This document shows positions 601 to 17,237 of a DNA stretch of 32,391 nucleotides, in pieces (the stretch's first letter is position 1; every line of letters starts with the position of its first letter). The DNA is from Flavobacteriales bacterium (GTDB lineage: Bacteria > Bacteroidota > Bacteroidia > Flavobacteriales_D > Sanyastnellaceae): assembly GCA_947488195.1 (NCBI GenBank), contig CANKYR010000014.1, positions 1-32,391 on the forward strand, written 5' to 3'. The translations under genes were made by a program, and so were the position numbers. Under the pieces are notes generated by a model. The model made no database searches. It saw only the letters and a list, made by a program, of their open reading frames with translations, and was not told the DNA's origin.

Positions 601-1947
601 TTATTTAAAATAAGCCTTATTTTCTTCAAGGAAATTTTCCAACTTACTTCTCATAATGAGTCTGCTCACGACTTTCATGTTGGAATCAAGTGCAATTAAT
701 GTTGGTGTAGATGGGGAGGGATAGTGCTTAGCGAGAAACGGACGCTTGTCCATTGGAGGAAGAACGTTAATCCAGGGCTGCTGATGTGTTGCAAGATGAT
801 TTTTCCAGGGGGCTTCTTCTTTATCAATGGAAATGGCATAGACTTCCAAGCCCTTATCGTGGTATTTCTTGTAAATTTCTAAGAGTTGTGGGTGAAATTC
901 TTCGCAATGCGAGCAATTGCTTCTCCAAAACATGACTAGCGTAATTTTATTCTTCTTGCAGGTTTCTTCCAACGAAATTATTTTACCATCTGGGTTGGGG
1001 TATTTCAGTTCAGCGGCTTTTTTGCCGGGAGCGCAATTCTTTAACGATTCAATGAGGTTCTTCGTATTCACATTGAACGAAGCATTGTCGGAACACCCGT
1101 CTGCATAGTTATTCAAGTAATAGCTAAGTCCGTCTTCGTTTTTATAATCCAACATTTTGTTCAAAATGAAAGAATGCAAATACTGATTCACGGCTTCGTT
1201 TTCACCCATTCTGCCTAGAAGTTCATCGGTGAATTTCTGAGCATATTCTTTCGGATAAGCTTTGTATAGTTGATTGAAGTATTGGTTTAGTCCACGAACG
1301 AAGGCGTAATGGAAAAGAATAATTTCGTTGTTGTAATCAACGTTTCCGAGAAAATGCTTGAAATAAATGGTGCTGTCAAATTGCATGAAATCATGGGGAA
1401 GTCTTCTTGAGAAAAGCGGAGCAATGTTCGGGAAAACTTCCGATTGAACACCTCCTTTTCCCTTCTCGATAATTCTATTGTTGATGATTTTTTGCTTGTT
1501 AAGAAAAGCAGGATGCGAGATAGATTTATAGGCGTCGTATTCGAGTTGAAGGGCCGAATAGAGGTTAGCCAGTTCAACATAATCTGTTTGCTCTGTTGAA
1601 TTATATAACGAAGAGGGTAGACCGTTTAGTTTTGAAAAATCGAGCGTTATCTCAATTGACTTCGGAAGTGTTTTCGGGTTCACATAGAAATCAGTCCAGG
1701 CCTTTCCTGTTCCTGAAAATCGCAAGCGGCACTGACCAGCATGGGAAGGTGAAAATGTAAGGGAAACGTTATTGGCAACATCTAAATCGGCATTGGCAAG
1801 AATTTGCCATTGATCTTTTTCAAAAGCTTCCAAAAATACTTTTTTCGAATTCTGTGCAGGAATGTTTTCCACATGAAGTTTCAGATTGGTTTGTGCAAAA
1901 CCAATCGAAAAAGCGAATGCTAGAATTATGCTAAAAAGTGATTTCAT
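601..1947 (-). CDS. Exported TlpA/ResA-type thioredoxin-fold protein with long N-terminal region
   Basis: The protein has 448 residues. A signal peptide (about 1-18, ending GFAQ) is followed by a beta-rich N-terminal region (20-105) resembling the DUF4369-type domains often fused to Bacteroidota thioredoxins. A helical middle region (about 120-300) precedes a C-terminal TlpA-like thioredoxin domain (about 308-448). The redox site is WRSNCSHC (Cys345 and Cys348), and a later TPTL supplies the cis-proline. The spacer Ser-His differs from the Gly-Pro or x-Pro common in TlpA proteins, so the redox potential may differ (inference). It probably acts in the periplasm as a thiol-disulfide oxidoreductase; its client is unknown. 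It is the last gene downstream of the lipoprotein operon, behind a strong terminator that ends four bases before its ATG. Confidence 0.85.
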   Translation of the reverse strand: MKSLFSIILAFAFSIGFAQTNLKLHVENIPAQNSKKVFLEAFEKDQWQILANADLDVANNVSLTFSPSHAGQCRLRFSGTGKAWTDFYVNPKTLPKSIEITLDFSKLNGLPSSLYNSTEQTDYVELANLYSALQLEYDAYKSISHPAFLNKQKIINNRIIEKGKGGVQSEVFPNIAPLFSRRLPHDFMQFDSTIYFKHFLGNVDYNNEIILFHYAFVRGLNQYFNQLYKAYPKEYAQKFTDELLGRMGENEAVNQYLHSFILNKMLDYKNEDGLSYYLNNYADGCSDNASFNVNTKNLIESLKNCAPGKKAAELKYPNPDGKIISLEETCKKNKITLVMFWRSNCSHCEEFHPQLLEIYKKYHDKGLEVYAISIDKEEAPWKNHLATHQQPWINVLPPMDKRPFLAKHYPSPSTPTLIALDSNMKVVSRLIMRSKLENFLEENKAYFK

Positions 1948-1951
1948 AGTG

Positions 1952-1981
1952 AAAAAAAAAGGTCACCGAAGTGACCTTTTT
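1952..1981 (-). terminator. Strong intrinsic terminator with UUCG loop
   Basis: A six-base stem GGTCAC/GTGACC (1961-1966 with 1971-1976) closes, on the minus strand, a TTCG tetraloop with a C-G closing pair. It is flanked by an A run and a nine-T run. It follows the stop of the 1996-2577 lipoprotein gene and the T run stops four bases before the ATG of the TlpA gene (1947). The A/T flanks make it potentially active in both directions. Confidence 0.85.
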
Positions 1982-1995
1982 GAAGAGGTTAAAGA

Positions 1996-2577
1996 TTATT
2001 TACCTTGAGAAAGTTTCTCCATTTCTTTGTCGAAAGTCTCTTTGAATTTCTCGTAGTTGTAGTCTGCTTTCAATTTGTCGTTTTTAGACAAACCGCTTTG
2101 GTAAGCATCTGCAATTGAGTTCCCGCTTAATTCAAGAGCAACATAACTTACATATGTTCCGTCAGGACGTTGAGTTAATCTCTCACAGATTTCGATACAA
2201 CCGCGAAGCTCTTGGTCAACTACTGTGCGAGCCATTTCGTTGAAAGACTCAGTAACTTCCTCTTTGTTATTGACTTCAGTTGAGTTAACGTAGTTGTCTC
2301 CAACAATTTTCATTGTAGCGTTAATTGTTTTTGCCATTTCAGACATAGAGTTTGAACGAGCTTTTTTCTTAGCCGTTTCACGATCCATGCTCTCGCCGGT
2401 AGCAGTTGAACGGAAAGCTTCTTTGGTGCTTTTGTATTCAGAACCCGAGCAATACTCGTTGATGATTACTTCTCCTTTTGGATCTGGAGTTTTTACTTCG
2501 TCTTTGTTCTTTTTGCAAGATGGGATAGCAATCATTGTCACTGCAGCAATTGCTAAAAGGGTAATACGTGTTTTCAT
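1996..2577 (-). CDS. Small LPP20-like lipoprotein
   Basis: The protein has 193 residues with a lipoprotein signal whose lipobox ends IPSC (Cys21), followed by a Lys/Asp/Glu-rich stretch. The core (about 60-160) has the pattern of LPP20/FlgP-type domains: a helix rich in Ala, Lys and Arg (AKKKARSNSMSEMAK), then an alternating strand-helix segment, then a strand pair ending YVSYVALELSG. The neighbouring LPP20 protein shows the same pattern (AKKLALNDLATEI, then EMYAIYYKLNK), so the two may be diverged paralogues (inference). It follows that gene by 48 bases and ends in a strong terminator. Function is unknown; it is probably an envelope lipoprotein acting with the two upstream lipoproteins. Confidence 0.7.
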   Translation of the reverse strand: MKTRITLLAIAAVTMIAIPSCKKNKDEVKTPDPKGEVIINEYCSGSEYKSTKEAFRSTATGESMDRETAKKKARSNSMSEMAKTINATMKIVGDNYVNSTEVNNKEEVTESFNEMARTVVDQELRGCIEICERLTQRPDGTYVSYVALELSGNSIADAYQSGLSKNDKLKADYNYEKFKETFDKEMEKLSQGK

Positions 2578-2625
2578 TATGTCAAGATATTAGTTGAATT
2601 GTTGTTTTCAGTTATTATGCCAAAC

Positions 2626-4008
2626 TTACAAAATTATTTTAATTATTTCGTTAATCAGCGTCGTTTCAATATTTTCTCTTTCTTTTTTGTATGCTTCTAA
2701 GACTGCGTTTTCGTGAGAAAGTTGTACTCCCTTCACTCCATTGATGCTTTTTTCGAAAATAGCAGAGCTTGTTTTTGTGTCGTTAACTGTAATCTTTCCA
2801 TCGATATAAGCCACCTTAAATCCCTGAATGTCTTCGCCGGCTCTAGGGTTTATGTTTATATAAATTACAAAGTCTGCAGAAGTTTCGCTCGTTGCTATTC
2901 TCATTCCTTTGCTTATTAAAGTGTTTCGCGCAGATTCAGCAAGAGTAGAGGTTTTCGTTCCATCTAATTTGAATTCATTAGATGTGACAAAAAAACTAGG
3001 AGCAAGAACTTCAATAGGTATTTTTCTTTGGTCGGTATTAATTCCAGCAACGAGTGCCAATGCCAGGTCTGAATCTAAATCTTGTGGAACTAATGCGTCA
3101 ATGACTAGACTTAACTCGAGTGCATTGTTTTTGGTCTTCAGGCTAATGTTATCGATATCGGCGAGAATAATTCCATCATTATCCGACATTGCTGTTTTTG
3201 GGTTCATGTAGTTGTCCCGCTGATAAACATACTTTACATTGATTCCGCGAACGCCAACGCCTTTGTAGGTTACCATTACAGGCACTTGCGTTTTGAAAGA
3301 GTTAGAAGAGGAAAGTACAATGTTCTTCAAAGGTGTTTCGAATCGGAGATCTGCAAGAACTGCTCGGATTTCAGAAAATAGTTCGTTGTCAATGAAGATG
3401 TCCTTTCCGCTCTCATCTTTCATTTGGTTTACTTCTGTCCAATAGGGCTTCAGAGAAAAAAGACCGTGGTAGAAAAGATCAATGGCGGAAGGGATATTGC
3501 CCAATTTCTTAGCCTCTCTTCCTTTAATTAAATAATCAAAAGCAGCTTTTAAAGTATTCTCTTTTTTCTGAGCTTTTTTACTTTGATAGTCGAATTTGTT
3601 CAGCTTATAATAAATGGCGTACATCTCTTTGTCTTCCCAGATGCCGGCGACTTCGAAGTCTTCGAGCATTTCAGAAGAAGAGGTAGTTACATTTGAACTA
3701 AAACTTTCATTGAAGGCCTTATTTACTTCCATGGTGTTGAAAAATGTTTGTCCTTCCACCTTAACAGAAATTTCTGTTGCAAGATCATTCAGCGCGAGCT
3801 TTTTAGCGATGGCCTGAAAATCTGCGGGCTGTGTGGTTTTCGAGCAAGTGGCAATTCCAATGTAATAAGAGGAGTTTACAGGTCGCGCAGAAACCCATTC
3901 TGGCTTTGGTTGTGGAGGAGGAACAACTGTTTTAACAGTTTCTTTTCCTCTGCAGGCGTTCAGCAGAATGACTACGAGAAACAGGAAGTATTTAAAAAAT
4001 AATTTCAT
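2626..4008 (-). CDS. LPP20-family lipoprotein
   Basis: The protein has 460 residues. The signal ends LLNAC (lipid-anchored Cys19). The domain at about 34-150 begins PEWVSARP and runs through GIATCSKT to MYAIYYKLNK, the layout of LPP20-type lipoproteins, the family that includes flagellar FlgP of Vibrio and Campylobacter. Residues 170-460 hold a helical segment, a beta domain with an extracellular-repeat look (QVPVMVTYKGVGVRGINVKY), and a C-terminal alpha/beta portion. The ATG overlaps the CsgG gene's TAA by one base (TAATG), so translation is probably coupled. It is likely an envelope partner of the CsgG-like protein. LPP20 membership is from pattern reading only. Confidence 0.72.
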   Translation of the reverse strand: MKLFFKYFLFLVVILLNACRGKETVKTVVPPPQPKPEWVSARPVNSSYYIGIATCSKTTQPADFQAIAKKLALNDLATEISVKVEGQTFFNTMEVNKAFNESFSSNVTTSSSEMLEDFEVAGIWEDKEMYAIYYKLNKFDYQSKKAQKKENTLKAAFDYLIKGREAKKLGNIPSAIDLFYHGLFSLKPYWTEVNQMKDESGKDIFIDNELFSEIRAVLADLRFETPLKNIVLSSSNSFKTQVPVMVTYKGVGVRGINVKYVYQRDNYMNPKTAMSDNDGIILADIDNISLKTKNNALELSLVIDALVPQDLDSDLALALVAGINTDQRKIPIEVLAPSFFVTSNEFKLDGTKTSTLAESARNTLISKGMRIATSETSADFVIYININPRAGEDIQGFKVAYIDGKITVNDTKTSSAIFEKSINGVKGVQLSHENAVLEAYKKERENIETTLINEIIKIIL

Positions 4009-5378
4009 TAAGGAACTAGCGTTTGCATTTGTGTTTTGACGTTTTCTGCAATTTTCTTGGCAATTTCAATGTACAGTTCATTCGCAATGTCATTTCCATC
4101 GCGAACATTTCTGCGAGCGTTCAACATGTCTTTTAAAGCGTTTCTATCGCGATTGTTAGTGTTTACAACATTTCCATTTGCTGGAAATAAATTGTTCGTG
4201 TTTCCTCCGTAAATGGCATAAATAACCTCGTCCTTATTCTTCTCGGTGAAGATGTCGTTCTTTATTAAAGAAGCCGTTTCAATTGACGTCATTTTATATT
4301 GAATGGAAACATTTGATTCTGAGTAATTGTAGTATTCGTCGAATTGAACAGACTTGTATTCGGTGTCGTAGAATGTCTTTCCTTCTGCGTTTACCTTTTT
4401 GACTTGATACGATTCAAAACCGTTTCGGGTAACTTTTCTCAATTGTCCATTTTGCACCGTGTGATTCAATACAGTCCCGGTAATAAGTGCCCTAGCTCCT
4501 GAAATTTTACCGATTTCAACAGCATTTGATTCAGAAAAAATACCGCTCATTTGAATGCGCTGTTCAGCAAGAATGTTGTTCAAATTTTCTCTATCGATCA
4601 CGTGAAGAAACGGGTCGTTAATTTGAGTTAACGCATTAAGTATATAGGCGGTTGCTTTTGTGTCGCTTCCCTGCATATTGGTGCCGTTGGTAAAAGGAAG
4701 AAGGGCCACAGTGTATTTGCCTTTTTCCAGACATTTGTTCTTGAGGTCAGCAGATTCTTTGTAGCCCAATTTACGTTCTTCAACTTTAATGAAACCATTG
4801 TATGCAGCGCGGTAATGCTTCGCTTCGAATTCGGTTTTTGCTTTTTGATAGATGGGTTCGAGATAGGCGATATCTTTTAAATCTCCGGCATCTTTAAAGT
4901 TAGGATCCAATCTTCCAATCTCGTTGAAGTTGTTTTCAGCATCTGCGAATTTATTGTCCTCCAACATTTTTGTGCCTTGCTCATAAAGTTCTGTGAGATA
5001 CGATTTTTTTACTTTTTCAAAATCGCCAAGATAAAATTCAGGTATCTGCAGTTCAACGCCAACGCCTTTGATTTTTGCTTGGTATTCTCGCACCGAAATG
5101 AACGTGTAAACAGCTTCCTTTTTATTTCCAAAACTACTTTTTTGGCTAAATTCACTGAGCAAGCCATTTAACACAGTTTGCCCCGTTTTTTTCATTCCAA
5201 TCTGGGCATCAATATTCGCGCGCTTCTTCCATAAAGCGGTATAATAACTTTCTGAGGCTTCTTTGTTCAGTCCAGCAGCTTCTTGTTTTTGTGCAAGCTT
5301 CGTGTAATGCTTGCTGTTTTGACAAGCCTGTGTGCAAAGGAGCAGAGTTACTGCAAAAAGGTAGAGCCAGTGTTTCAT
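4008..5378 (-). CDS. CsgG-like lipoprotein with N-terminal helical repeats
   Basis: The protein has 456 residues. The lipobox ends TQAC (Cys19). Residues 25-215 form TPR-like helical repeats (for example 132-172 and 177-216, with ADAENNFNEIGRLDP and HYRAAYNGFIKVE). The C-terminal half (about 221-456) is CsgG/LpoB/FlgO-like: KYTVALLPFTNG, then HVIDRENLNNILAEQ, GARALITGTV and VSIQYKMTSIETASLI, a strand order typical of this fold. CsgG itself is the outer-membrane curli secretion pore; other members are periplasmic adaptor proteins. Residues 300-360 form a longer loop than in LpoB-like proteins, but I cannot tell whether it spans the membrane. The start lies two bases after the stop of the DUF4476 gene. 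No curli subunit genes are nearby, so I do not call it csgG. Confidence 0.78.
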   Translation of the reverse strand: MKHWLYLFAVTLLLCTQACQNSKHYTKLAQKQEAAGLNKEASESYYTALWKKRANIDAQIGMKKTGQTVLNGLLSEFSQKSSFGNKKEAVYTFISVREYQAKIKGVGVELQIPEFYLGDFEKVKKSYLTELYEQGTKMLEDNKFADAENNFNEIGRLDPNFKDAGDLKDIAYLEPIYQKAKTEFEAKHYRAAYNGFIKVEERKLGYKESADLKNKCLEKGKYTVALLPFTNGTNMQGSDTKATAYILNALTQINDPFLHVIDRENLNNILAEQRIQMSGIFSESNAVEIGKISGARALITGTVLNHTVQNGQLRKVTRNGFESYQVKKVNAEGKTFYDTEYKSVQFDEYYNYSESNVSIQYKMTSIETASLIKNDIFTEKNKDEVIYAIYGGNTNNLFPANGNVVNTNNRDRNALKDMLNARRNVRDGNDIANELYIEIAKKIAENVKTQMQTLVP

Positions 5379-5380
5379 AC

Positions 5381-6496
5381 TTATTTCGTTTCAATATATT
5401 CATTCAGCTCTTCGGTGCTAGAGTCGAAACTAAAACCTTCACTTACGTTATAGTAGTTATTCTGATCGAAGCAATAATCGTAAGCGTATTTCGCGAATTC
5501 TAAGCGGCTGTCTTCAAATCCGAAAATTTTCATTACTACAAGGATTTGATCTGTTGTGAGGCAATTAGCTTTTGCCACTTGTTTTGCTGTTGAAAGCTTT
5601 GTGTCGTCGAATCCTTTACTTTCAATCGTCTGTTTTGCTTTGCCGAAGCTTGCAGCATCCATTGAACGTGTGCAATTTCCGTTTCCAACAATGGTTGAGT
5701 TGGTTGGTTGGCTGTTTGAAGGTTCGCTTGGACGAGTAGTGTGTGCTGGAACTGTTGAATTACTTGAGGAAGACGATGACGAAGTCGTAGTTCTAGTCGT
5801 TGTTGTGGTCGTTCCTGAAGTTTGAACATCCATGTTAGGAACGTTCACGTTAATGCCCATGTTCATGCCGTCAACATTAATATTCATCCCTACATTTCCA
5901 CCAGTGTTTGTGGAATTGGGTTCGTTGATGTTAACGTTCATTCCCATGTTTACGCCGTCAACATTGATGTTCATACCAATGTTTCCTCCAGTATTGGGTT
6001 TGGTATTCGTTCCAGTTACGGTTGTCGTGGTTGTGGTATTGGAATTTCCGCCAATTGCTGTTCCGGTGTTGTTGGGAGTCTGGGTGGTGCTAGCAGGAGC
6101 ATCGTCTACAACAGCGAAATCTTTCACATTGCTAGTGCTAGGCGAATTAGCTGTTGAATTTGAAGAAATTGGGTTTTCTGTGTAATAGCGAAGAACATAT
6201 TCTCCTTTTTTGTTTTTCTTCACTTGGTAAGTCACCTCCATTCCAGGGTGCAAAGCGAAGTTGTTGTTTGAGAAATCCGGAAGTGTAGCATCTTGAAAAT
6301 CTACACGAGCTTGATAAAACTCAGAGGTTAGATTTTGAAGCTTTAAGTTGGATTGAGGCGCGCTGCTCATGGCTTCACCATTGAGGTAAAGGGTGAATTT
6401 TTCTCCCGATTCAGAGTAAATAACAGCATTCATCTGTGCGAAAACACTTGAAAAGGTTACTATACTTATGGCAACAAGGGTCATTTTTTTCATCAT
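5381..6496 (-). CDS. Exported DUF4476 protein with Gly/Asn repeats and Thr/Ser-rich linker
   Basis: The protein has 371 residues. After a signal peptide (1-20, ending SVFAQ) comes a small beta domain (about 21-110), then a low-complexity region (115-270). That region is rich in Thr, Ser, Asn and Gly and contains two 29-residue copies of a GMNINVDGxNMG-type repeat. The C-terminal part (about 272-367) matches DUF4476, a helical domain common in Bacteroidota exported proteins, with two conserved Cys. The first of two adjacent ATG codons was kept. An 8-base TAAATTTA (6518-6525) is a weak -7 candidate upstream. This is the first gene of the lipoprotein operon. The architecture suggests an exported protein with a flexible spacer; its job is unknown. 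Confidence 0.78.
   Translation of the reverse strand: MMKKMTLVAISIVTFSSVFAQMNAVIYSESGEKFTLYLNGEAMSSAPQSNLKLQNLTSEFYQARVDFQDATLPDFSNNNFALHPGMEVTYQVKKNKKGEYVLRYYTENPISSNSTANSPSTSNVKDFAVVDDAPASTTQTPNNTGTAIGGNSNTTTTTTVTGTNTKPNTGGNIGMNINVDGVNMGMNVNINEPNSTNTGGNVGMNINVDGMNMGINVNVPNMDVQTSGTTTTTTRTTTSSSSSSSNSTVPAHTTRPSEPSNSQPTNSTIVGNGNCTRSMDAASFGKAKQTIESKGFDDTKLSTAKQVAKANCLTTDQILVVMKIFGFEDSRLEFAKYAYDYCFDQNNYYNVSEGFSFDSSTEELNEYIETK
5841..5992 (-). repeat. Two direct copies of a 65-bp coding repeat
   Basis: Copies at 5841-5905 and 5928-5992 are 87 bases apart (29 codons). They encode near-identical peptides built on GGNxGMNINVDGxNMGxNVN. Differences are mostly synonymous or conservative, suggesting an older in-frame duplication kept by selection at protein level. 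Confidence 0.8.
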
Positions 6497-6598
6497 TCTT
6501 TTTAAGCTTTTGGTTTGTAAATTTAGTTATGTTTTTACCTGTATAAAAGTTTATGCCAAAAAATAAAGTCTTAGGAAACAGATGCTAATTGTATTTGC

Positions 6599-6606
6599 TA
6601 ACTTTG
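6599..6606 (+). promoter_or_regulatory. Probable -7 element for the saccharopine dehydrogenase-like gene
   Basis: TAACTTTG matches TAnnTTTG. It lies 6 bases before the ATG at 6613 and 12 before the ATG at 6619. It overlaps an upstream in-frame TTG (6589), which argues against that TTG as a start. No -33 TTG at standard spacing is clear. The rest of the 6497-6612 divergent intergenic stretch shows nothing else definite. Confidence 0.5.
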
Positions 6607-6612
6607 TTTTCG

Positions 6613-7923
6613 ATGGAAATGAAGAAAATTATACTATTCGGTGCTGGGAGAAGCGCACGCCATTTGGTTTCTTTTTTGGTTGAAGGAGCCCTATCTGGGA
6701 AGTGGAATGTTATTGTCGCAGACACAAATGTTACACATTGGATTGAAGAATATGGCGATTTGCAGCAAGTTAAATTTATATCAGGCGATGCAAGCGATGC
6801 GAAGTTTCGACATAAATTAATTGCTCATTCATCACTTGTTATATCTATGCTTCCAGCCTTTATGCATGCGGAAGTTGTTCGCGATTGCATAAATTTTCAT
6901 GTTCACGTTTTTACTCCAAGTTATGTGAATCCTGAGGTAAATGCGATGCATGATCGTGCTGTGCAAGAGGGTGTTTTGGTGTTGAATGAGATGGGGGTAG
7001 ATCCTGGAATAGATCACATTTCTGCCATGGAGATTATTCATCGTTTGAAAGAAAAAGGTGCTGAAATTACTTCATTCGAATCATACACGGGTGGACTAGT
7101 TGCGCCAGAAAGTGATGATAATCTTTGGGGATATAAAATTTCATGGAATCCAAGAAACATCATTCTAGCAGGCAGCTCAGGACACGCGATGTACAGAGAT
7201 GACAACAAACTTCGAATGGTTCCTTATTACAATTTATTCGATGAGGTCGATACAATCGTTGCTTGTGACGGCGTTCGATATGATGCTTATGCCAATAGAA
7301 ATTCTATTCATTATTTGGAATTATACGGATTAGAAAAAGTTCAAAAATTAGTAAGGGGCACACTCAGAAAGCAAGGATATTGCAGAGGTTGGGCTTTTTT
7401 AGTTAAGAATGGATTCACGAACGACGACACGAAAATTCCCGCTGGATCTTTTTCAACATGGTCTGACTTGTCTCAATCGTTATTGGGTGTCAACTTCAAC
7501 ATAAAAAATGTAAGTCAGGAAATAGCTGCAATGCTTAATGAGATTGGTATTTTTAATGATGAATCTCTGTTGAATGTTGAGCAAACCTGTGCTCAGCATT
7601 TGCAACAATTACTCGAGAAGAAATGGGTGTTGAAGGAAGGTGATCGTGATATGATTGTAATGGTTCATAAATTTGGATATTCGCTGAATGGAAAGAAATT
7701 CATGCTGAATTCATCCATGGTTTTGGAGGGAGATGATGAATTTAAAACAGCAATGTCGAAGACAGTGGGTATGCCTATTGCTTTTGCTGTTGAACGGTTA
7801 TTCAACGGAGATTTTTCTTCACGAGGGGTGCAAATTCCTGTCCTTCGAGAATTCTACGAACCTTTACTTAACGATTTAAAGAATATTGGAATTTCATTTG
7901 TTGAAACAGTTGAAGAAGTATGA
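6613..7923 (+). CDS. Saccharopine dehydrogenase family oxidoreductase (LYS9-like)
   Basis: The protein has about 436 residues. The N-terminal Rossmann motif KKIILFGAGRSARHLV (about 4-19) binds NAD(P). The conserved NEMGVDPGIDHISAME segment and the following SYTGGLVAPESDDNLWGYK region are the catalytic/C-terminal signature of saccharopine dehydrogenases and reductases. These enzymes interconvert saccharopine with 2-aminoadipate semialdehyde plus glutamate, or with lysine plus 2-oxoglutarate. Bacteroidota members are probably lysine-catabolic, but the exact reaction cannot be read from sequence. The start is ATG 6613 (or 6619); an upstream TTG at 6589 would place the -7 box inside the gene. The stop overlaps the next ATG (ATGA), so it is the first gene of a three-gene operon with an unknown exported protein and ispH. 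Confidence 0.87.
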   Translation: MEMKKIILFGAGRSARHLVSFLVEGALSGKWNVIVADTNVTHWIEEYGDLQQVKFISGDASDAKFRHKLIAHSSLVISMLPAFMHAEVVRDCINFHVHVFTPSYVNPEVNAMHDRAVQEGVLVLNEMGVDPGIDHISAMEIIHRLKEKGAEITSFESYTGGLVAPESDDNLWGYKISWNPRNIILAGSSGHAMYRDDNKLRMVPYYNLFDEVDTIVACDGVRYDAYANRNSIHYLELYGLEKVQKLVRGTLRKQGYCRGWAFLVKNGFTNDDTKIPAGSFSTWSDLSQSLLGVNFNIKNVSQEIAAMLNEIGIFNDESLLNVEQTCAQHLQQLLEKKWVLKEGDRDMIVMVHKFGYSLNGKKFMLNSSMVLEGDDEFKTAMSKTVGMPIAFAVERLFNGDFSSRGVQIPVLREFYEPLLNDLKNIGISFVETVEEV

Positions 7924-8468
7924 AGCAACTGATTTTTCTACTTTCTTTTATCCCGCTCAGCATATGGAGTCAGGAGTATCGGAAATGCCCGAGTTTTAAT
8001 TCGGAAGAAAAGTGGGGAAATTTGGATGCATTTGCTGAAAATGAAAAGGTTGTTTTAAATCTTTTGGAGTGGTTGACTTCGACACCACCAACAGAGCAGT
8101 TGATAGAGCGAAGCTCGGCAAGCATTTTTGTCATGGAGTGGGTCACAAAGAATCCAAATTTTAAAGTAAATGTTGAAGTAGGACCTTATTCAGAATATTT
8201 TTTTACAGAGGATCTGATGTTAGGTTATTTGTTTGGCAATGTCCTTTTTGCGTTAAAGCATGAAAGTAAAGTAAAGCCTGAAGTTCAGCGTTTGGCAGGA
8301 TTGAAAACATTTTTGTTCGTGGTAGAACATTCAGAATTGTATTCGAAGAATAGAATTTTTAAGGCGTTGCTTCGAGCAAATAGAAAAGGCGAGTTGATAG
8401 AATTTGATAATCAGATGTGGTTGAACTATAAGTCACACGCATTGTTATCACAAGAGAAATTAAATTAG
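7920..8468 (+). CDS. Exported protein of unknown function
   Basis: The protein has 182 residues. A short signal peptide (1-17, ending IWSQ) is followed by a single Cys (YRKCPSF) and a mostly helical body with no motif I recognise (NLLEWLTSTPPTEQL, MLGYLFGNVLFALKHE, ELIEFDNQMWLNYKSH). It could be a small helical-repeat or adaptor domain in the periplasm. The ATG overlaps the upstream stop by four bases (ATGA), and ispH starts one base after its stop, so it is expressed with two metabolic enzymes. The Gln just after the signal suggests signal peptidase I cleavage rather than lipidation. Reality of the gene is well supported by frame, length and overlap; function is not. Confidence 0.75.
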   Translation: MKQLIFLLSFIPLSIWSQEYRKCPSFNSEEKWGNLDAFAENEKVVLNLLEWLTSTPPTEQLIERSSASIFVMEWVTKNPNFKVNVEVGPYSEYFFTEDLMLGYLFGNVLFALKHESKVKPEVQRLAGLKTFLFVVEHSELYSKNRIFKALLRANRKGELIEFDNQMWLNYKSHALLSQEKLN

Positions 8469-8469
8469 A

Positions 8470-9678
8470 ATGAAGAAGTTCGAGGTTCCAGCCCATTATA
8501 GATCAACCATTCTTGGACGAATAAAAGAAATTCGTAAAGTGAATGATCCACGCAAGAAAGATCATTCACCCTTTGTCTTCCAAATTGGAAAAACAGAAAT
8601 CGTAATACCTCGTCATTTTGGATTTTGTTACGGTGTGGAAAACGCTATCGAAATTGCCTTTCGAACAGTTGCAGAAAATCCGAATAAAAGAATTTTTCTT
8701 TTGGGTGAAATGATACACAACCCTCAGGTAAATGAAGATTTATTGGCGGAAGGAATTCAATTTTTAGTGGATAATCAGGGGAATAGATTGATTGATTTTT
8801 CAACCTTGAATTCAGATGATATTGTAATAACTCCGGCTTTCGGAACTACAGTGGAAATGGCAGCGGAACTGGCTCAGTTGGGAGTGCATCTTGAAAGATA
8901 CAATACAACTTGTCCGTTCGTTGAAAAGGTTTGGAAGCGCTCTGCGGAATTAGGAAATCGCGGCTATACCCTTGTTGTTCATGGAAAGTATTTGCATGAA
9001 GAAACGCGCGCGACGTTTTCGCATGCAGCAGAAACAGGTCCCGTTGTTGTTGTTCGAAACAAGAAGGAAGCTGAATTGCTGGCTAAATACATCCGTAGAG
9101 AATTGAGCGAAGAGCAGTTTGAAATAGATTTCGCAAATAAATATTCAAAGGGATTCTCGGTTTCAAGAGATTTGCAAAAAATAGGAGTGGTGAATCAAAC
9201 CACAATGCTCGCGACGGAGACGCAAGAAATAGCAGCATATCTCAGAGATGTTGTTGTTGAAATGTATGGAGAAGATGCGACTACCGACACACGCGACACA
9301 CTTTGTTACGCGACCAACGACAATCAGAATGCAACATTGGGAGTGCTGGAAAGTGGAGCACAGTTGGCAATAGTGGTGGGTGGTTTCAATTCTTCAAACA
9401 CGATACAAATTGCCACGATTTTGGGCGAGAAGATGGCGGTTTATTTTGTGCGAAATGTGGATGATCTTGTTTCGAGACAGAAAGCAATAGTTTTCAATTA
9501 TTCAAATTTGAAGGAAGAGGAGATTGTTCCTTCCCTTCTTTTTGAAGAAAATTTAAAGCTAATCGTAACGAGTGGTGCGTCTTGTCCAGACAGAACTGTC
9601 GATCTTGTTATTCAAAAAATTGTCGATTGGCGTGGGGAATCCGAGTCCATAGAAGCCGTCCTCGAAGGGCGCATATAA
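8470..9678 (+). CDS. ispH: 4-hydroxy-3-methylbut-2-enyl diphosphate reductase
   Basis: IspH is the last enzyme of the MEP pathway. It uses a [4Fe-4S] cluster to reduce HMBPP to IPP and DMAPP in the cytoplasm. The protein has 402 residues. Three cluster-ligand Cys are visible: Cys53 in RHFGFCYGVENA, Cys148 in TTCPFVEKVW and Cys279 in DTLCYATNDNQ. Substrate-binding signatures HNPQVNED, GGFNSSNT and a late SGASCPD also occur. It is longer than the roughly 316-residue E. coli enzyme because of an N-terminal stretch of about 45 residues and an insertion near 200-235, a form I associate with Bacteroidota and plant or cyanobacterial enzymes. It supplies precursors used by the carotenoid operon nearby, though it is in a different transcription unit. 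Confidence 0.96.
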   Translation: MKKFEVPAHYRSTILGRIKEIRKVNDPRKKDHSPFVFQIGKTEIVIPRHFGFCYGVENAIEIAFRTVAENPNKRIFLLGEMIHNPQVNEDLLAEGIQFLVDNQGNRLIDFSTLNSDDIVITPAFGTTVEMAAELAQLGVHLERYNTTCPFVEKVWKRSAELGNRGYTLVVHGKYLHEETRATFSHAAETGPVVVVRNKKEAELLAKYIRRELSEEQFEIDFANKYSKGFSVSRDLQKIGVVNQTTMLATETQEIAAYLRDVVVEMYGEDATTDTRDTLCYATNDNQNATLGVLESGAQLAIVVGGFNSSNTIQIATILGEKMAVYFVRNVDDLVSRQKAIVFNYSNLKEEEIVPSLLFEENLKLIVTSGASCPDRTVDLVIQKIVDWRGESESIEAVLEGRI

Positions 9679-11517: not shown

Positions 11518-12222
11518 ATGAGAATGAATCTTACTCCGGCGGTTAAGAACATAATAATTATTAATGTTCTCATTTACCTAGCCTGTTTCGTTGTCCCTGG
11601 ATTGAACGACGCTTTAACCGGCTACTATTTCGCGAGTCCGAATTTCCGTCCATGGCAGATTGTTACGCATATGTTCATGCATTCGCAATATGACTTCACC
11701 CACATTTTTTTTAATATGTACGCGTTGTATTTATTTGGAACGGCGCTTGAAAATTATTGGGGCACGAAGAAATTTATTATCTATTACATGACCTGCGGAG
11801 TGGGAGCATTTTTCTTGCACATGGGCGTGAGTTATTTGGAAATTCAGAAGATGATGCAAGTCCTTTCTGATAAAGAAATTTATCAGGTAATGATTACTGG
11901 TTTGGAAGAAGGAAGAGCATACAAAGTTCAAATGGTTGAATTGTATTCCGCCATAAATACGGGCGTGGTGGGTGCTTCAGGGGCTGTATTCGGCGTTTTG
12001 TTGGGATTCGGAATGTTATTCCCGAATACAGAGTTGATGTTGTTGTTTCCACCTATTCCGCTTAAAGCGAAATACTTCGTGATGATCTACGGTGCCATCG
12101 AATTCTATTTGGCTATGAGACAAACTACTGGCGACAACGTGGCGCATTATGCGCATTTAGGTGGTATGCTTTTCGGTTATCTTCTGCTTAAATATTGGCA
12201 GAAAAATTCGAAAGCATGGTAA
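11518..12222 (+). CDS. Rhomboid family intramembrane serine protease
   Basis: The protein has 234 residues with about six membrane segments. Rhomboid hallmarks are present: HIFFNMY (His62, Asn66; HxxxN), the catalytic serine in VGASGAVFG (Ser154) and the catalytic histidine in YAHLGGMLFG (His213). A 45-residue loop (103-148) between membrane segments is longer than in E. coli GlpG. Rhomboids cleave single-pass membrane proteins within the bilayer; the substrate is not known. It starts six bases after mutL and its stop overlaps the second rhomboid gene by one base, indicating joint expression. Catalytic residues are intact, so activity is expected. Confidence 0.93.
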   Translation: MRMNLTPAVKNIIIINVLIYLACFVVPGLNDALTGYYFASPNFRPWQIVTHMFMHSQYDFTHIFFNMYALYLFGTALENYWGTKKFIIYYMTCGVGAFFLHMGVSYLEIQKMMQVLSDKEIYQVMITGLEEGRAYKVQMVELYSAINTGVVGASGAVFGVLLGFGMLFPNTELMLLFPPIPLKAKYFVMIYGAIEFYLAMRQTTGDNVAHYAHLGGMLFGYLLLKYWQKNSKAW

Positions 12223-13037
12223 TGCGTTTTCGCGCGACTTCTATTGGATTGAAATTATTGTCCGCTGTGTTGGCATTTGGTTTTATCGTGCGCTTAGTGG
12301 TTGTTCTACTTTCAGTTAGTTCTGCCGGCGCTGCGGATGTAGCAACATTTGATTCTTACGTTGGTTTTTCGACGAAAAGTGATTCTGTATCTTGGTTTTG
12401 GACTTGGCTTACGTACAGCTTTTTTCATGCCGAGGTTAGTCATTTCATTTGGAATTATCTCTTGTTGTTGCTCTTAATTTTTTGGTCCAAGGAACGCTAT
12501 ACCGGATTTAGTGCATTGAAATATTGGATAGCGGGTGCAGCGGGCGGACTAGTCTTTCTTTTGTGCATTGAAAAGGAGGTGTCGCTCATTGGAGCTTCTT
12601 CGGGAATAACCGCCCTATGGGTGGGTTGGTTATTTTTCAATTTTGGAAAGAATGGAGAAAGAGGCTTGTCTTTTTGGTTAGGATGCGCTGTCTTTTTATT
12701 TTTGGAGGTCATTGACATTGCGAATTATGAAGCTCGGAACTTGTCGCTGTTTGCACATATTGGCGGAGCGCTTGGCGGAATGTTAGTGGCAGTGTCGGAA
12801 AAATATAATTGGGTTGAAATGAATTGGATTGAAAAAATATTCTCGTGGTTTAAACCTTCACCGAACCTTACGGTTAAACGCAGCAACAAACGATTTCAAA
12901 CAGATGATGAGTTTAATGCAGAACGTAAACTAAAAGAAGATTATTTGAACTCAATTTTAGACAAAATTTCACGTTCGGGATTCGAGAGTCTATCAGCTAA
13001 AGAAAAACAGTTTCTAGAGCAACATAAAGAGAAATAA
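12222..13037 (+). CDS. Second rhomboid protease with DUF6576-like C-terminal tail
   Basis: The protein has 271 residues from ATG 12222, which overlaps the previous TAA by one base (TAATG); ATG 12216 is an alternative. Membrane segments surround HFIWN (HxxxN), the catalytic serine in LIGASSGITALW and the histidine in FAHIGGALGGM. The cytosolic tail (last about 55 residues) carries QTDDEFNAERK and SGFESLSAKEKQFLEQH, resembling the short tail domain often found on Bacteroidota rhomboids. The pair of adjacent rhomboids is diverged, not a recent duplication. It probably shares or complements the substrate range of its neighbour. The following nuclease-fold gene begins on the last base of its stop. 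Confidence 0.9.
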   Translation: MRFRATSIGLKLLSAVLAFGFIVRLVVVLLSVSSAGAADVATFDSYVGFSTKSDSVSWFWTWLTYSFFHAEVSHFIWNYLLLLLLIFWSKERYTGFSALKYWIAGAAGGLVFLLCIEKEVSLIGASSGITALWVGWLFFNFGKNGERGLSFWLGCAVFLFLEVIDIANYEARNLSLFAHIGGALGGMLVAVSEKYNWVEMNWIEKIFSWFKPSPNLTVKRSNKRFQTDDEFNAERKLKEDYLNSILDKISRSGFESLSAKEKQFLEQHKEK

Positions 13038-14158
13038 TGGAATCGCCGGCGAAAGAAATAAAGAAGTTGAGTCATTGGAGTAAGTTGGTGCGATTTGTTT
13101 TTCGCCTTCTTAGCCTTGTGATCATTTCCTTTTATTTGTTGTCTTATACCTCGGCGCATTTTACGCCAAGTGTTTTTATGTTCTTTAGTGTGTTGGGGTT
13201 GTTTTTTTTACCACTTTTAATGGTCTTTGTTTTAGCGGCAATTGTTATGGCCTTTCGAAAAGAATGGAAGTGGCTTATAGCTTTTGGTGTTTGCTTTGTT
13301 TTTTCACTCCCAGATCTACTCTCTTTTTTTAATTTTAGTTCCGCGAAGGATCAGCAAGCGAAAGAATTGGGGATGACTGTAATGACGCACAACACCCATC
13401 TCATGGGTTATTACGATGGTGTGAATGCGAAAAGAAATAGAGATGCAATACTGAATGAAATACAAAATGTAAAACCCAATATTCTTTGCTTGCAAGAATG
13501 TTATTGGAACACCAATGGAGGCGATTTTCTATCAGAACAATCACGTAATGAAATTCTAAAAGGATACTCAGTCCATGAGAGATCTACTCATGTGCTATCG
13601 GATGGAGGCAGATTCGGATTGGTTATTTTTTCCAACTATCCGGTTGTCAATCAAGGGCAAGTTCCGTTTGAAAATGAAGTGAATAATTTTTGTATTTATT
13701 TAGATGTTTTAGTAGGAAGTGATACCGTGCGCGTATACAATGCACACTTGCAAAGTTTTCGATTGAAGAAAAAGTATCTTGATCTTTTCGATGAGAACAT
13801 TGATATGAATGAAATTCAAAATGAGAGCAAACCTCTCTTTATTCAATTATATCGTTCTTCATTGAAACGTTCACGGCAAGCGAATATTCTTGCAGCACAT
13901 GTAGAGTTATGTTCGTATAAAGTGATTTTAACAGGTGATTTTAACGACACACCAATTTCATATACCTACAATCGATTAACGAAAAAGTTGTTGGATAGCT
14001 TCAAAGATGCAGGGAAGGGAATCGGAAGCACTTACCGAGGACCTCTTCTCGGGCTACGTATAGACTACGTTTTACATAGTGAGAGCCTGAAAGCTCGAAG
14101 TTATATAACCAGTGAAGCGGGATTCTCTGACCATCATCCAGTGATTGTCAAGTTCTAG
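13037..14158 (+). CDS. Membrane-anchored endonuclease/exonuclease/phosphatase family protein
   Basis: The protein has 373 residues. Three hydrophobic segments in the first 110 residues anchor it, and the catalytic domain follows from about 115 to the end. Metal and active-site signatures of the EEP fold are visible: MTHNTHLMGYYDG, LCLQECYW (metal-binding Glu), IFSNYPV, YNAHLQSF, TGDFNDTP and the terminal FSDHHPVIV (catalytic Asp-His). Members hydrolyse phosphodiester or phosphomonoester bonds in DNA, phospholipids or inositol phosphates; with this membrane layout a lipid or extracellular substrate is more likely than DNA repair (inference). The ATG overlaps the rhomboid stop (TAATG). Its 3' end overlaps the convergent lycopene cyclase gene by 11 bases. 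Confidence 0.88.
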   Translation: MESPAKEIKKLSHWSKLVRFVFRLLSLVIISFYLLSYTSAHFTPSVFMFFSVLGLFFLPLLMVFVLAAIVMAFRKEWKWLIAFGVCFVFSLPDLLSFFNFSSAKDQQAKELGMTVMTHNTHLMGYYDGVNAKRNRDAILNEIQNVKPNILCLQECYWNTNGGDFLSEQSRNEILKGYSVHERSTHVLSDGGRFGLVIFSNYPVVNQGQVPFENEVNNFCIYLDVLVGSDTVRVYNAHLQSFRLKKKYLDLFDENIDMNEIQNESKPLFIQLYRSSLKRSRQANILAAHVELCSYKVILTGDFNDTPISYTYNRLTKKLLDSFKDAGKGIGSTYRGPLLGLRIDYVLHSESLKARSYITSEAGFSDHHPVIVKF

Positions 14159-14891
14159 ATTTCCACTTCTCACGGAAATACTCGTATGGCGTAAGTACAA
14201 GAAGAATCATAGCAAGTCCATAGAAAAAATCTTCTAACGGAACACTCCAAATTCGAATGCCTAAATTGAATTGATTGTTGTATCGAACAATAGCTTCCGT
14301 AATGTTCACCTGACTGGTGTTTATTAGAGGGAAATCATAAAAATGAAGCCCTGTTAGTATGCCATTCGACATGTAAAAAGGAATAAGCAGAATGAACCAT
14401 GCAAAAAGGAAGTAACCAAGGAATTCCGATCGGCGTTGAATGTGGAAGAGCAGTAATGCGCTGCAAAGAAGTGTTGCGCTGAAGGTATACCACAGTTCTT
14501 TTACTCCTGAGTAAACGCAAAGGCATGCGGAAATTAACACAATGGTTGTTCCGGAAATTGTTGTAAATCTTTTTGAAGGAGCCGATTTTTTAAAGTATCG
14601 AACACATTCGAAAGTGAATACACAAGCAAAAGGAACGGCAATGAAAAAGAGCCATTCTTCAACGGGCAGGAGAAACCAGCGAGTGGTTAGTGTGTATGTT
14701 GAATTGAAATTCCAGATACCCCAATGGGTAAATAGGATATCCCAAGGAATGTAAATGGCGATCATGGCTAGAAGCCCAACAAACAAAGGCTTGAAGTTTT
14801 TGTAAAAGGCAACACTTTTGTGAAAGCTCAAAAAGAATGGGCCAGAGAGGCAAAAGAGATCAACCAAAAGGTAAGCGTATTTCGGATTCAT
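14148..14891 (-). CDS. crtY: Lycopene beta-cyclase, fused CrtYc-CrtYd type
   Basis: The enzyme cyclises both ends of lycopene to give beta-carotene in the inner membrane. The 247-residue protein is nearly all membrane helices and shows the two-fold repeat of the CrtYc/CrtYd (CarR-like) family. The first half has LPVEEWLFF (75-83, PxE(E/D) motif) and the second has VPLEDFFYG (217-225). This differs from the FAD-type CrtY of Proteobacteria. It is the last gene of the carotenoid operon, starting by a four-base ATGA overlap with crtZ. Its end overlaps the convergent EEP gene. The length fits a complete fusion of the two subunits. The assignment is firm at family level. Confidence 0.93.
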   Translation of the reverse strand: MNPKYAYLLVDLFCLSGPFFLSFHKSVAFYKNFKPLFVGLLAMIAIYIPWDILFTHWGIWNFNSTYTLTTRWFLLPVEEWLFFIAVPFACVFTFECVRYFKKSAPSKRFTTISGTTIVLISACLCVYSGVKELWYTFSATLLCSALLLFHIQRRSEFLGYFLFAWFILLIPFYMSNGILTGLHFYDFPLINTSQVNITEAIVRYNNQFNLGIRIWSVPLEDFFYGLAMILLVLTPYEYFREKWKSRT

Positions 14892-15361
14892 TTGGAAGCC
14901 TTTGCTTGTTTGAATCTCTGTTCAGCTTTGAAATATTTGAATGGAACGATAAGCATTCCGAAACATTCTGCTTCTTCTTTGAATTGATTCTTGTGATGAA
15001 CCTTGTGCGCTTTGCGAATGGCTCTGAAGTATAGATTGTCGGTCTTGTCGAACCAATGAAATCTTCGGTGAATAAGCACTTCGTGAACCAAGAAGTAACC
15101 AATACCATAGGCTAAAATTCCGAAACCAATGAAGGTGCGAAAGTCGTTGCCGTTCATCATTCCAAACATAATAAGCAGCCAACTAGGAACCGCGTAGATT
15201 AAAAAGAATACATCGTTCTTTTCAAAAAATCCCGGCGTGGGTTGGTGGTGATCTTCGTGGAAGTACCACATGAATCCGTGCATCACGAATTTGTGCGTAA
15301 GCCATGCCATTCCTTCCATAATGAGAAACGTGATAATTACTAGGGCAATGTTCAGTGTCAT
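14888..15361 (-). CDS. crtZ: Beta-carotene hydroxylase
   Basis: CrtZ adds hydroxyls at C3 and C3' of beta-carotene, giving cryptoxanthin and then zeaxanthin. The 157-residue membrane protein has the full di-iron histidine set of the fatty-acid hydroxylase superfamily: HKFVMH (23-28), HEDHH (35-39), HEVLIH (93-98) and HKVHH (119-123). The length is usual for bacterial CrtZ. It overlaps idi (ATGA, four bases) and crtY (ATGA, four bases), so translation in this operon is probably coupled. No ketolase (crtW) is present beside it, which points to zeaxanthin rather than astaxanthin as the product (inference). Confidence 0.96.
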   Translation of the reverse strand: MTLNIALVIITFLIMEGMAWLTHKFVMHGFMWYFHEDHHQPTPGFFEKNDVFFLIYAVPSWLLIMFGMMNGNDFRTFIGFGILAYGIGYFLVHEVLIHRRFHWFDKTDNLYFRAIRKAHKVHHKNQFKEEAECFGMLIVPFKYFKAEQRFKQAKASK

Positions 15362-15876
15362 GATTGAAGGGCATTAAATTCATTTACTCGGTCTAGTGCT
15401 ATAAGGAACCACGGAGTGAAGTTCTGCGGCGTTTTTTTTATTTCGAGTTGAAGTTCTTCTATTCCAATGAATCGAAAATCTTCAACTTCCTCAAGATTGA
15501 TGGAAGGCATTTGATTCGATGAACCGAAAAAAACATGGTCGAATTCGTGCTCCGTTAATCCGTTTGCAAATTCTGCCTTGTACACAAATGTGAAGATAGG
15601 CATTAGCAAACACTGCATTCCCATTTCTTCTTGTAATCTCCTATTCGCTGCATCTAAAACATTTTCGTTTTCTCTTGGATGAGAGCAACAGCTGTTGGTC
15701 CAGAGTCCGCCACAATGATATTTTGACGAGGCTCTTTTTTGAAGAAGTAATTTTTTTTCTGAATTGAAAATGAAAATTGAAAATGCACGATGCAGGACTC
15801 CTTCAACATGGGCTTGTTGTTTTTCCATTGTTCCAATGGCGTTGTCTTGCTCGTCGACAAGGACTACAAATTCCAT
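15358..15876 (-). CDS. idi: Isopentenyl-diphosphate delta-isomerase, type 1
   Basis: Idi interconverts IPP and DMAPP, balancing precursors for carotenoid synthesis. It has 172 residues with a Nudix-like fold. Key features are LLLQKRAS, WTNSCCSHPRENE (catalytic Cys63 and metal-binding His66), RLQEEMG (Nudix helix) and TEHEFDHVFFG (catalytic Glu near 111). The ATG at 15876 overlaps the TGA of the upstream unknown gene by one base (TGATG); an adjoining upstream GTG is less likely. Its place in the crt operon, while IspH already makes both isomers, suggests flux tuning toward IPP/DMAPP demand for GGPP. No GGPP synthase gene is present in the window. Confidence 0.95.
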   Translation of the reverse strand: MEFVVLVDEQDNAIGTMEKQQAHVEGVLHRAFSIFIFNSEKKLLLQKRASSKYHCGGLWTNSCCSHPRENENVLDAANRRLQEEMGMQCLLMPIFTFVYKAEFANGLTEHEFDHVFFGSSNQMPSINLEEVEDFRFIGIEELQLEIKKTPQNFTPWFLIALDRVNEFNALQS

Positions 15877-16391
15877 CACAATTGACTGTATTTAGCTTTG
15901 AGGTCTGCACTTATGTTTTCACTGTGAATCATGAACTGAATCACGATTCTCCAAAAGGCTTTAGTCTTGTTCATCTTCCCTGAAGAAAGGGATTGATAAA
16001 TGTAATACGAATCTTCGTCTAGTTTGTCGTGATATTGCAACATCCAAGGTGCCTTGTCTTGAACAGAATATCGTAGAAAGCGCAACTCTTCATTCCAATA
16101 ATCATTGGCTATCGCTTTTTCTAGCAGATCTTTTCCACGACTGAAATAACTGAGTTTATCCGCTGGGTTTGAAACAAGTTCAGCGTACATGGCTGTGGCT
16201 ACTCCGAAGTATGCTTGTTGCGTATTATTCCTATTTGACAGGTTTCCGCAGTAATTGTAGAACTCCTGTTTAGCAGGTTCATTTTGCGCTGCAATAAATA
16301 ATTTCTGACATTGAATTTCTTGCCCAAGTGTTGTTTGGTAAATACAAAGAAATAGAATCACTGCGAATGATTTTGCAACCACCAATTTCAT
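15876..16391 (-). CDS. Unknown exported protein inside the carotenoid operon
   Basis: The protein has 171 residues. A clear signal peptide (1-23, ending TTLGQ) is followed by a helical body. The segments NNTQQAYFGVATAMYAEL and YFSRGKDLLEKAIANDYWNEEL look like one or two TPR-like helical hairpins. The C-terminal part has WMLQYHDKLDEDSYYIYQ and KAFWRIVIQFM. Two Cys lie near residues 28 and 48. I do not recognise a named family. It is translationally locked between crtB (TAATG overlap) and idi (TGATG overlap), so it is made together with the carotenoid enzymes, yet predicted to lie outside the cytoplasm. A scaffold, carotenoid-binding or pigment-transport accessory role is speculation. Confidence 0.78.
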   Translation of the reverse strand: MKLVVAKSFAVILFLCIYQTTLGQEIQCQKLFIAAQNEPAKQEFYNYCGNLSNRNNTQQAYFGVATAMYAELVSNPADKLSYFSRGKDLLEKAIANDYWNEELRFLRYSVQDKAPWMLQYHDKLDEDSYYIYQSLSSGKMNKTKAFWRIVIQFMIHSENISADLKAKYSQL

Positions 16392-17233
16392 TAGAGTAAA
16401 TTTAAATTGTGCTGTAAATAGGTTTTTGCAAGAAGTGCAATTTTCTTTGGATTCGCCACGCGAATGCGCTCCTTTAAAATTCTTTCGCAGGGTAGTGCTT
16501 GTATTTTAAGAAACAATTTGTAATAATATTTGAATGCAATGAGTACACCGAACCTGGCTTCTTTCGGAAGTTGAAGTACCCCAATGTAGGCAAGTCTAAA
16601 ATCTTCTTTAATTTCTTTTTCAATAGCCTTTTTCGTGGGTTCATCGAAATGTGTCATATCTACATTAGGAAAATATACTCTACCTAAGGCGTTGTAATCT
16701 GCATGTAAATCGCGCAGGAAGTTAATCTTCTGAAATGCTGCTCCAAGCTTCATGGCGGAAGGTTTTAACTTCTCATATTCCGACTGATTTCCATTTACAA
16801 AAACGTGCAAGCACATTAATCCAACCACTTCCGCAGATCCAAGAATATAGGTTTCGTATGAATCACGGTCATGTTCCATTTGGTGAAGATCCATTTCCAT
16901 ACTCTTCAAAAAAGTGTCTACAAGTTCCCATTCCAAATTGTACTTGTGGAAGGTGTTTTGAAAGGCATTCAAAATAGGGTTCAATGAAATACGCTCTTCA
17001 ATAGCAAGCACAGTGTCTTTGCGGAAGCGTTCCATGAGCTCGTGCTTTTCAAAGTCGTGAAAAGTATCTACAATTTCATCTGCGAAACGCACGAAGCCGT
17101 ATATCGCATAGATAGGATTTCTGATTTCTTTTCCAAGTGTACGAATGCCAAGGCTAAAGCTGGTGCTGTAGGCATGGGTGGTTAGCTTACTGCAATCGAA
17201 GGAAACGCTGTCGAATAGTGGTTTTCCTGTCAT
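16391..17233 (-). CDS. crtB: Phytoene synthase
   Basis: CrtB condenses two GGPP molecules into phytoene at the membrane surface. It has 280 residues and carries the two Asp-rich motifs of squalene/phytoene synthases: ADEIVDTFHD (first, Asp52 and Asp56) and NFLRDLHADYNALGRVYFP (second, Asp175 and Asp179). AYSTSFSLGIR occurs near the N-terminus and IYAIYGFVRFAD in front of the first motif. The start ATG lies four bases after the crtI stop. It overlaps the unknown exported gene downstream by one base. Length and motifs fit a complete enzyme. Confidence 0.96.
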   Translation of the reverse strand: MTGKPLFDSVSFDCSKLTTHAYSTSFSLGIRTLGKEIRNPIYAIYGFVRFADEIVDTFHDFEKHELMERFRKDTVLAIEERISLNPILNAFQNTFHKYNLEWELVDTFLKSMEMDLHQMEHDRDSYETYILGSAEVVGLMCLHVFVNGNQSEYEKLKPSAMKLGAAFQKINFLRDLHADYNALGRVYFPNVDMTHFDEPTKKAIEKEIKEDFRLAYIGVLQLPKEARFGVLIAFKYYYKLFLKIQALPCERILKERIRVANPKKIALLAKTYLQHNLNLL

Positions 17234-17237
17234 GATA

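Follow-up and report, generated by a model that had tools for sequence, protein, structure and literature searches.

A 32,391-nucleotide stretch (positions 1-32,391) of contig CANKYR010000014.1 of a Flavobacteriales bacterium from the family Sanyastnellaceae (assembly GCA_947488195.1; 2.19 Mb, 159 contigs, 85% complete), hereafter the window, contains a unit of three linked lipoprotein genes that encode a CsgG-type, an LPP20-type and a small LPP20-like protein. The trio is nearly universal in the family, is co-inherited in other families of the class, and belongs to neither the curli nor the flagellar systems. With a probability of about one half, we propose that its products make a non-pore, periplasm-facing ring or scaffold of outer-membrane lipoproteins, similar to the flagellar H-ring or the PelC ring, that docks a partner machine.

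Organization of the locus

The unit, the gene ahead of it and the associated candidate signals are as follows.

5381-6496, minus strand: DUF4476 protein, 371 amino acids (aa), Pfam PF14771; lineage-specific accessory of the trio
4008-5378, minus strand: core gene 1, CsgG-type lipoprotein, 456 aa, with tetratricopeptide repeats (TPR) and a predicted CsgG/PelC/FlgT-M/TolB-N-type domain
2626-4008, minus strand: core gene 2, LPP20-type lipoprotein, 460 aa, with LPP20, predicted macroglobulin-like beta and TolB-N/PelC-type C-terminal domains
2621-2628, minus strand: candidate Bacteroidota-type -7 box TAAGTTTG, overlapping the core gene 2 stop codon
1996-2577, minus strand: core gene 3, small LPP20-like lipoprotein, 193 aa
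1956-1981, minus strand: terminator-like hairpin with an 11-pair stem and a T-tract, closing the unit

An earlier note on this DNA described four tightly packed genes with three lipoboxes, and the open reading frame (ORF) coordinates bear this out. The DUF4476, CsgG-type, LPP20-type and small genes are separated by 2, -1 and 48 bases, and the lipobox is present in three of the four proteins, which are the trio. The lipid cysteine is invariant in the alignments of relatives of all three (53/53 rows for the CsgG-type, 51/51 for the LPP20-type and 19/19 for the small protein).

The range 601-6496, given in that note for a four-gene operon, takes in a fifth gene of the TlpA/thioredoxin type (601-1947) that lies past the terminator-like hairpin and belongs to another transcription unit. 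It was rejected as a unit member; of the family's 18 other trio loci it adjoins only one, which is from the same genus. Terminator-like sites are about as common in shuffled sequences (7 found, 5.7 expected); the hairpin at 1981-1956 is the longest of those found and ends a gene. Within the genus, the 48-base gap before the small gene (before position 2577) hardly varies; it contains the TAAGTTTG box, which is identical in six of six aligned genus members. We take such a box to be a promoter element (-7) in Bacteroidota, and the small gene may therefore have its own promoter.

Co-occurrence of the trio genes in Bacteroidota

The CsgG-type and LPP20-type proteins each have a match in 60 of the 61 genomes of the family. 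Adjacency, defined as the best matches of both lying on the same strand within 300 bp, was observed in 56 of the 61. Among the remaining genomes, four have the matches on separate contigs (mostly fragments or weak matches) and one has neither. The trio is intact in 18 of 20 fetched family regions; one of the other two (L048) is cut by a contig end and the second (L051) is a paralog locus. The latter carries, at 7421-8752, a second, orphan gene for a TPR and CsgG-type lipoprotein that adjoins a coaE-like gene (assigned by eye) and has no LPP20 partners. Weaker second CsgG-type matches occur in many genomes of the family.

Of 194 relatives found with an alignment of the small protein, 80 were retained and combined with 20 regions from other members of the class. 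The order CsgG-LPP20-small is found in 66 of these 100 loci, many of which end at contig edges; six have all three genes rearranged and 28 have only one or two of them. The gap between the CsgG-type and LPP20-type genes does not exceed 20 bp in any of 75 pairs (median -4, with starts taken from the longest ORF). Close named relatives are mostly titled Flavobacteriales. Some trio-bearing contigs are titled 'Euryarchaeota archaeon' (such as L121) or 'Chryseobacterium gleum', and look like mislabelled metagenome assemblies.

In a class sample of 159 genomes, matches were counted at E below 1e-20, which dropped as weak 15 of 44 CsgG-positive, 1 of 30 LPP20-positive and 1 of 35 small-positive genomes. 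The CsgG-type gene remained in 29 genomes, the LPP20-type gene in 29 and the small gene in 34. The first two occur together in 27 genomes (Fisher p 7e-26), the small gene accompanies all 29 LPP20-type genes, and the CsgG-type and small genes share 27 genomes. Fisher values overstate the certainty because the genomes are related; the joint presence and absence inside families, seen in f6, f12, f34, f42 and mostly in f29, is more telling. The trio genes are present in G064 and G180 and absent from G111 and G147 (f6), present in G167 and absent from G093, G133 and G199 (f34), and present in G101, G140 and G174 and absent from G205 (f42). Four f12 genomes have the trio genes, and in G215 of the same family just a stop-containing CsgG-type fragment is present. 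In f29 the genes occur in G088 and G164 and are missing from G197; G129, with the CsgG-type gene only, is a counter-case. The CsgG-type and LPP20-type genes are neighbors in 23 of the 27 class genomes with both (counted by eye); the other four belong to f12, where the LPP20-type gene adjoins the small gene instead.

LPP20-type matches were found in 14 of the 198 genomes of a phylum sample. Strong ones (E below 1e-20) occur beyond the class in three genomes (G291, G295 and G332), and beside them we found only a weak CsgG-type match (19 bits, L154) and a weak small-gene match (46 bits, L153). This sample thus yielded no complete trio from other classes. In the open-licence literature we found no paper that treats CsgG and LPP20 together, Bacteroidetes included, and none on 'LPP20 family lipoprotein'; CsgG in connection with Flavobacteriales led to a single paper, a review on Elizabethkingia.

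DUF4476 and the flanking genes

The DUF4476 protein (PF14771, 74.9 bits; cut-off 22.5) consists of a signal peptide, a conserved N-terminal region of about 90 aa, a Thr/Asn/Gly-rich repeat linker and the C-terminal DUF4476 domain. Its gene lies ahead of the trio in 11 of the 18 other family loci, also in f10 genomes, and in 32 of the 66 loci with the order CsgG-LPP20-small. DUF4476 is widespread, being present in 104 of the 159 class genomes, yet f1 and f10 are the only families in which it adjoins the trio; we ruled it out as a core component and consider it a lineage-specific addition. The co-occurrence that the earlier note expected of all four genes was found for the CsgG-type and LPP20-type genes, adjacent throughout most of the family and found together in 27 of the 29 class genomes that carry each. 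It did not extend to DUF4476, which, with trio adjacency in less than half of the ordered loci and in two class families, is not the defining lead gene suggested there. Our search of the open-licence literature turned up a mention of DUF4476 only in work on animal ciliary bands.

A saccharopine-dehydrogenase-like gene (by eye; 6589-7923, plus strand, in the window) is oriented divergently from the trio at the majority of f1 loci and also in f10. Apart from f1 and f10, the 20 class regions compared have no recurrent neighbor of the trio. Flanking genes vary among families, and the trio therefore stands alone. A link to type IX secretion was considered through co-occurrence and set aside as uninformative, since GldM is present in 152 of the 159 class genomes. 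A role in anti-phage defence was also rejected; the sole PADLOC match is a weak one of the small protein to SduA (E 0.002). A plasmid search gave no match. Elsewhere in the window, an apparent carotenoid cluster (14148-18713, minus strand; lycopene cyclase-, hydroxylase-, IPP isomerase-, phytoene synthase- and desaturase-like genes) and a tandem pair of rhomboid-like membrane protein genes (11518-13037, plus strand) were recognized by eye.

Domain structure of the trio proteins

The CsgG-type protein matches Pfam CsgG with 35.2 bits (cut-off 20.8) over profile positions 6-104 of 210 only. This family matches all 53 relatives, and TPR models match up to 35 of them. The AlphaFold2 model, built from the 53-row alignment (mean predicted local distance difference test score, pLDDT, 89.2), has TPR-like helices up to residue 219 followed by a domain at 220-456. 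The best VIA-align match is PelC (Z 15.0, 126 residues aligned, root-mean-square deviation (rmsd) 2.2 Å), followed by FlgT (Z 13.7, 144 residues, 3.0 Å), CsgG (Z 12.8, 171 residues, rmsd 6.3), TolB (Z 11.8, 120 residues, 3.0 Å) and LpoB (Z 10.4, 107 residues, 2.3 Å). The model also matches 2IQI of the DUF330/PqiC type (Z 12.3) and the CsgG structure 4uv3 (Z 10.9, 166 residues, rmsd 4.1); the top Foldseek matches are CsgG. The protein is thus predicted to combine TPR-like helices with a PelC/FlgT/CsgG/TolB-N domain, and the CsgG/FlgO fold ascribed to it in the earlier note is matched by a predicted fold of the CsgG/FlgT superfamily.

The LPP20-type protein matches Pfam LPP20 (PF02169) with 28.6 bits, above the cut-off of 25.9, and so do 51 of its 51 relatives. 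Its AlphaFold2 model (pLDDT 84.5) has helices at 138-185, a beta domain at 219-335 that resembles macroglobulin MG domains (Z about 10), and an HpaA/PelC/TolB-N-type C-terminal domain at 335-460 (HpaA Z 11.2, 125 residues, 2.7 Å). The alignment with FlgT spans model residues 47-460 (Z 10.8, 188 residues aligned), but with an rmsd of 27.3 Å; the protein presumably has a FlgT-like domain order with a different domain placement. In a profile search of the PDB, the trio proteins had no sequence relatives except TPRs and a single LPP20 protein, the other matches being weak and unrelated. The LPP20 protein is 4KZS, an LPP20-family lipoprotein of 285 aa, which the LPP20 domain matches weakly by profile (E 0.017) and which differs in domain composition.

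The small protein scores 18.4 bits against Pfam LPP20, under the same cut-off, and at E 0.01 the family matches 4 of its 19 relatives. Its hhalign comparison with the LPP20 domain of the LPP20-type protein (probability 95.6, E 1.2e-8) indicates that the two regions are related. The alignments of the CsgG-type and LPP20-type proteins match each other near the signal peptides only; therefore we claim no kinship from this comparison.

Pore function and comparison with curli secretion

A CsgG-like secretion pore, that is, a transmembrane channel through which the repeat-rich DUF4476 protein is exported in fibre form, would agree with the Pfam CsgG score, the first rank of CsgG in Foldseek and the DUF4476 gene that leads the operon in the window. 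A long beta-hairpin of the model (about residues 311-352), which is conserved, also falls at the place of the first membrane hairpin of CsgG. This place was taken from what we assume to be the membrane-hairpin positions in E. coli CsgG, through a profile alignment over the hairpin region (probability 3.4, E 0.013) used for position only. The insertion here is longer than in E. coli CsgG and is conserved, but its columns are rich in Lys, Arg, Glu and Tyr. A membrane-type non-polar face is found on hairpin strand 1 in only 1 of the 53 relatives and on strand 2 in 10 of 53, by a simple criterion with one positive control, in which all four presumed E. coli CsgG strands pass. At the position of the second CsgG hairpin (TM2) a non-polar face is possible in 40 of the 53 rows, yet the model has no hairpin there. 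The hairpin strands mostly fail the test, and a membrane pore formed by the CsgG-type protein is therefore unlikely.

The distribution of CsgF and the location of DUF4476 also speak against a curli-type exporter. CsgF was not found in the source genome, within its 85% completeness, and occurs in one of the 159 class genomes, which lacks the trio; the E. coli control was detected. Curlin subunits and CsgE were not seen within the window (no genome-wide search was made), and in most other families the DUF4476 gene is not next to the trio. The CsgG-type protein shares with the curli channel, a nonamer (PMC4389571), the Pfam family, the lipid cysteine and the fold; it differs in its TPR N-terminus, its unsupported membrane hairpins and a genome without CsgF.

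Membrane side and comparison with lipoprotein rings

The canonical signal for surface export after the lipid cysteine is absent from all 53 CsgG-type and all 51 LPP20-type rows and present in one of the 19 small-protein rows, and the net charge after the cysteine is positive. The signal definition (PMC5080379) was established in genera other than the host. The missing signal and the positive charge suggest that the trio lipoproteins face the periplasm.

Several known assemblies offer comparisons for periplasm-facing lipoproteins of these folds. PelC is a ring of twelve lipoproteins on PelB at the outer membrane, onto which PelB docks via its TPRs (PMC12141448), and PqiC is an octameric toroid at the inner leaflet of the outer membrane (PMC10897342). 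PelC is the best fold match of the CsgG-type domain, and the lipid anchor is shared; the trio differs in the fusion of a TPR arm to the presumed ring domain, in its two LPP20-type partners and in the lack of a recurrent adjoining exporter gene. A PelC-like collar seated on an outer-membrane TPR-barrel exporter, unlinked to the trio and transporting polysaccharide or protein, would fit the top rank of PelC among the structural matches, and the TPR docking of PelB has a parallel in the TPR-like helices of the window protein itself. No conserved polysaccharide or barrel gene lies beside the trio at this partly annotated set of loci and families, and we regard this arrangement as rather improbable.

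LpoB, the outer-membrane activator of a peptidoglycan synthase, is another structural match of the CsgG-type domain. The LpoB model matches 27 of the 53 relatives at E 0.01 or better, but the window protein itself scores 19.4 bits, under the cut-off of 22.3. UB2H is the docking domain for LpoB in synthases of the PBP1b type. It is above the cut-off in none of the 61 family genomes, where nine weak sub-threshold matches fall in ORFs over 1000 aa. An LpoB-like activator would also leave the two LPP20-type partners without a role, and we find such a function quite unlikely.

The Vibrio H-ring is made up of FlgO, FlgP and FlgT (PMC6375700, PMC7990780). Like the trio with its predicted folds, it brings together outer-membrane lipoproteins and periplasmic ring proteins of TolB-N-type fold, and the LPP20-type protein presumably has the FlgT-like order. 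The trio adds TPR and macroglobulin-like domains. The likeness also draws on the folds of FlgO and FlgP: a PelC/FlgT-M-type, an LPP20 plus TolB-N-type and an LPP20-only protein mirror FlgO, FlgT and FlgP, respectively. With FlgT among the top structural matches, the trio could be taken for an H-ring remnant retained after loss of the flagellum. However, the FlgO and FlgT Pfam families have no match up to E 1, and the PDB profile search described above found no H-ring relative. The flagellin N domain was not detected in the source genome (85% complete) and was found in 1 of the 61 family genomes. The trio is kept almost throughout a family in which 60 of the 61 genomes have no flagellin; this argues for a present function and makes a relic very unlikely. 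The exceptional genome, G057, bears its flagellin-domain genes on contigs C9 and C187, which reflects either assembly contamination or a genuine flagellum in a group otherwise without it. The earlier view of a lipoprotein unit of the envelope that lacks curli and flagellar genes is supported, as are conserved co-occurrence and a predicted fold of the CsgG/FlgT superfamily.

Proposed function

The trio reuses the folds of PelC, PqiC, CsgG and the H-ring proteins, and a docking ring or scaffold is therefore the best supported function. Three lipid anchors would hold the proteins, as a periplasm-facing scaffold, to the inner side of the outer membrane. Most likely, the CsgG-type protein forms a lipoprotein ring through its PelC/CsgG/TolB-N-type domain, and its TPR arms would serve as the platform for docking; the LPP20-MG-TolB-N protein, with its presumed FlgT-like order, and the FlgP-like small LPP20 protein would bind to it and decorate or close the ring. 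Such a collar would not be a curli pore and would anchor or position another envelope machine, as the Vibrio H-ring or the PelC and PqiC toroids do. The DUF4476 protein, often encoded ahead of the trio in the family, is probably an accessory or client.

Several observations weigh against a docking ring. It was deduced from domain folds, and the fold alone is no proof of a ring because the TolB-N type also occurs in LptE, TolB and LpoB, which are not known to form rings. The LPP20 region of the LPP20-type model is partly of low confidence (residues 82-112), and the FlgT match of this protein supports the domain order only, given its rmsd of 27 Å. Two f16 genomes (G074 and G217) carry the LPP20-type and small genes without a CsgG-type match, two class genomes have the CsgG-type gene without the LPP20-type gene, and five have the small gene only. 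No machine that such a ring would serve was identified, the distribution of GldM being uninformative.

A further, tentative possibility is that the trio is a dedicated, flagellum-independent counterpart of the H-ring: an outer-membrane collar of three lipoproteins, core to one family of Bacteroidota and inherited jointly across the class. In cells that have neither flagella nor curli, this collar would seat a trans-envelope machine not yet described. H-ring-, PelC- and CsgG-type proteins each serve one known machine. The same folds, nearly universal in this family and co-inherited elsewhere with no such machine adjacent, would point to an unrecognized envelope structure of Bacteroidota, and the trio may bear on the origin of the flagellar H-ring parts.

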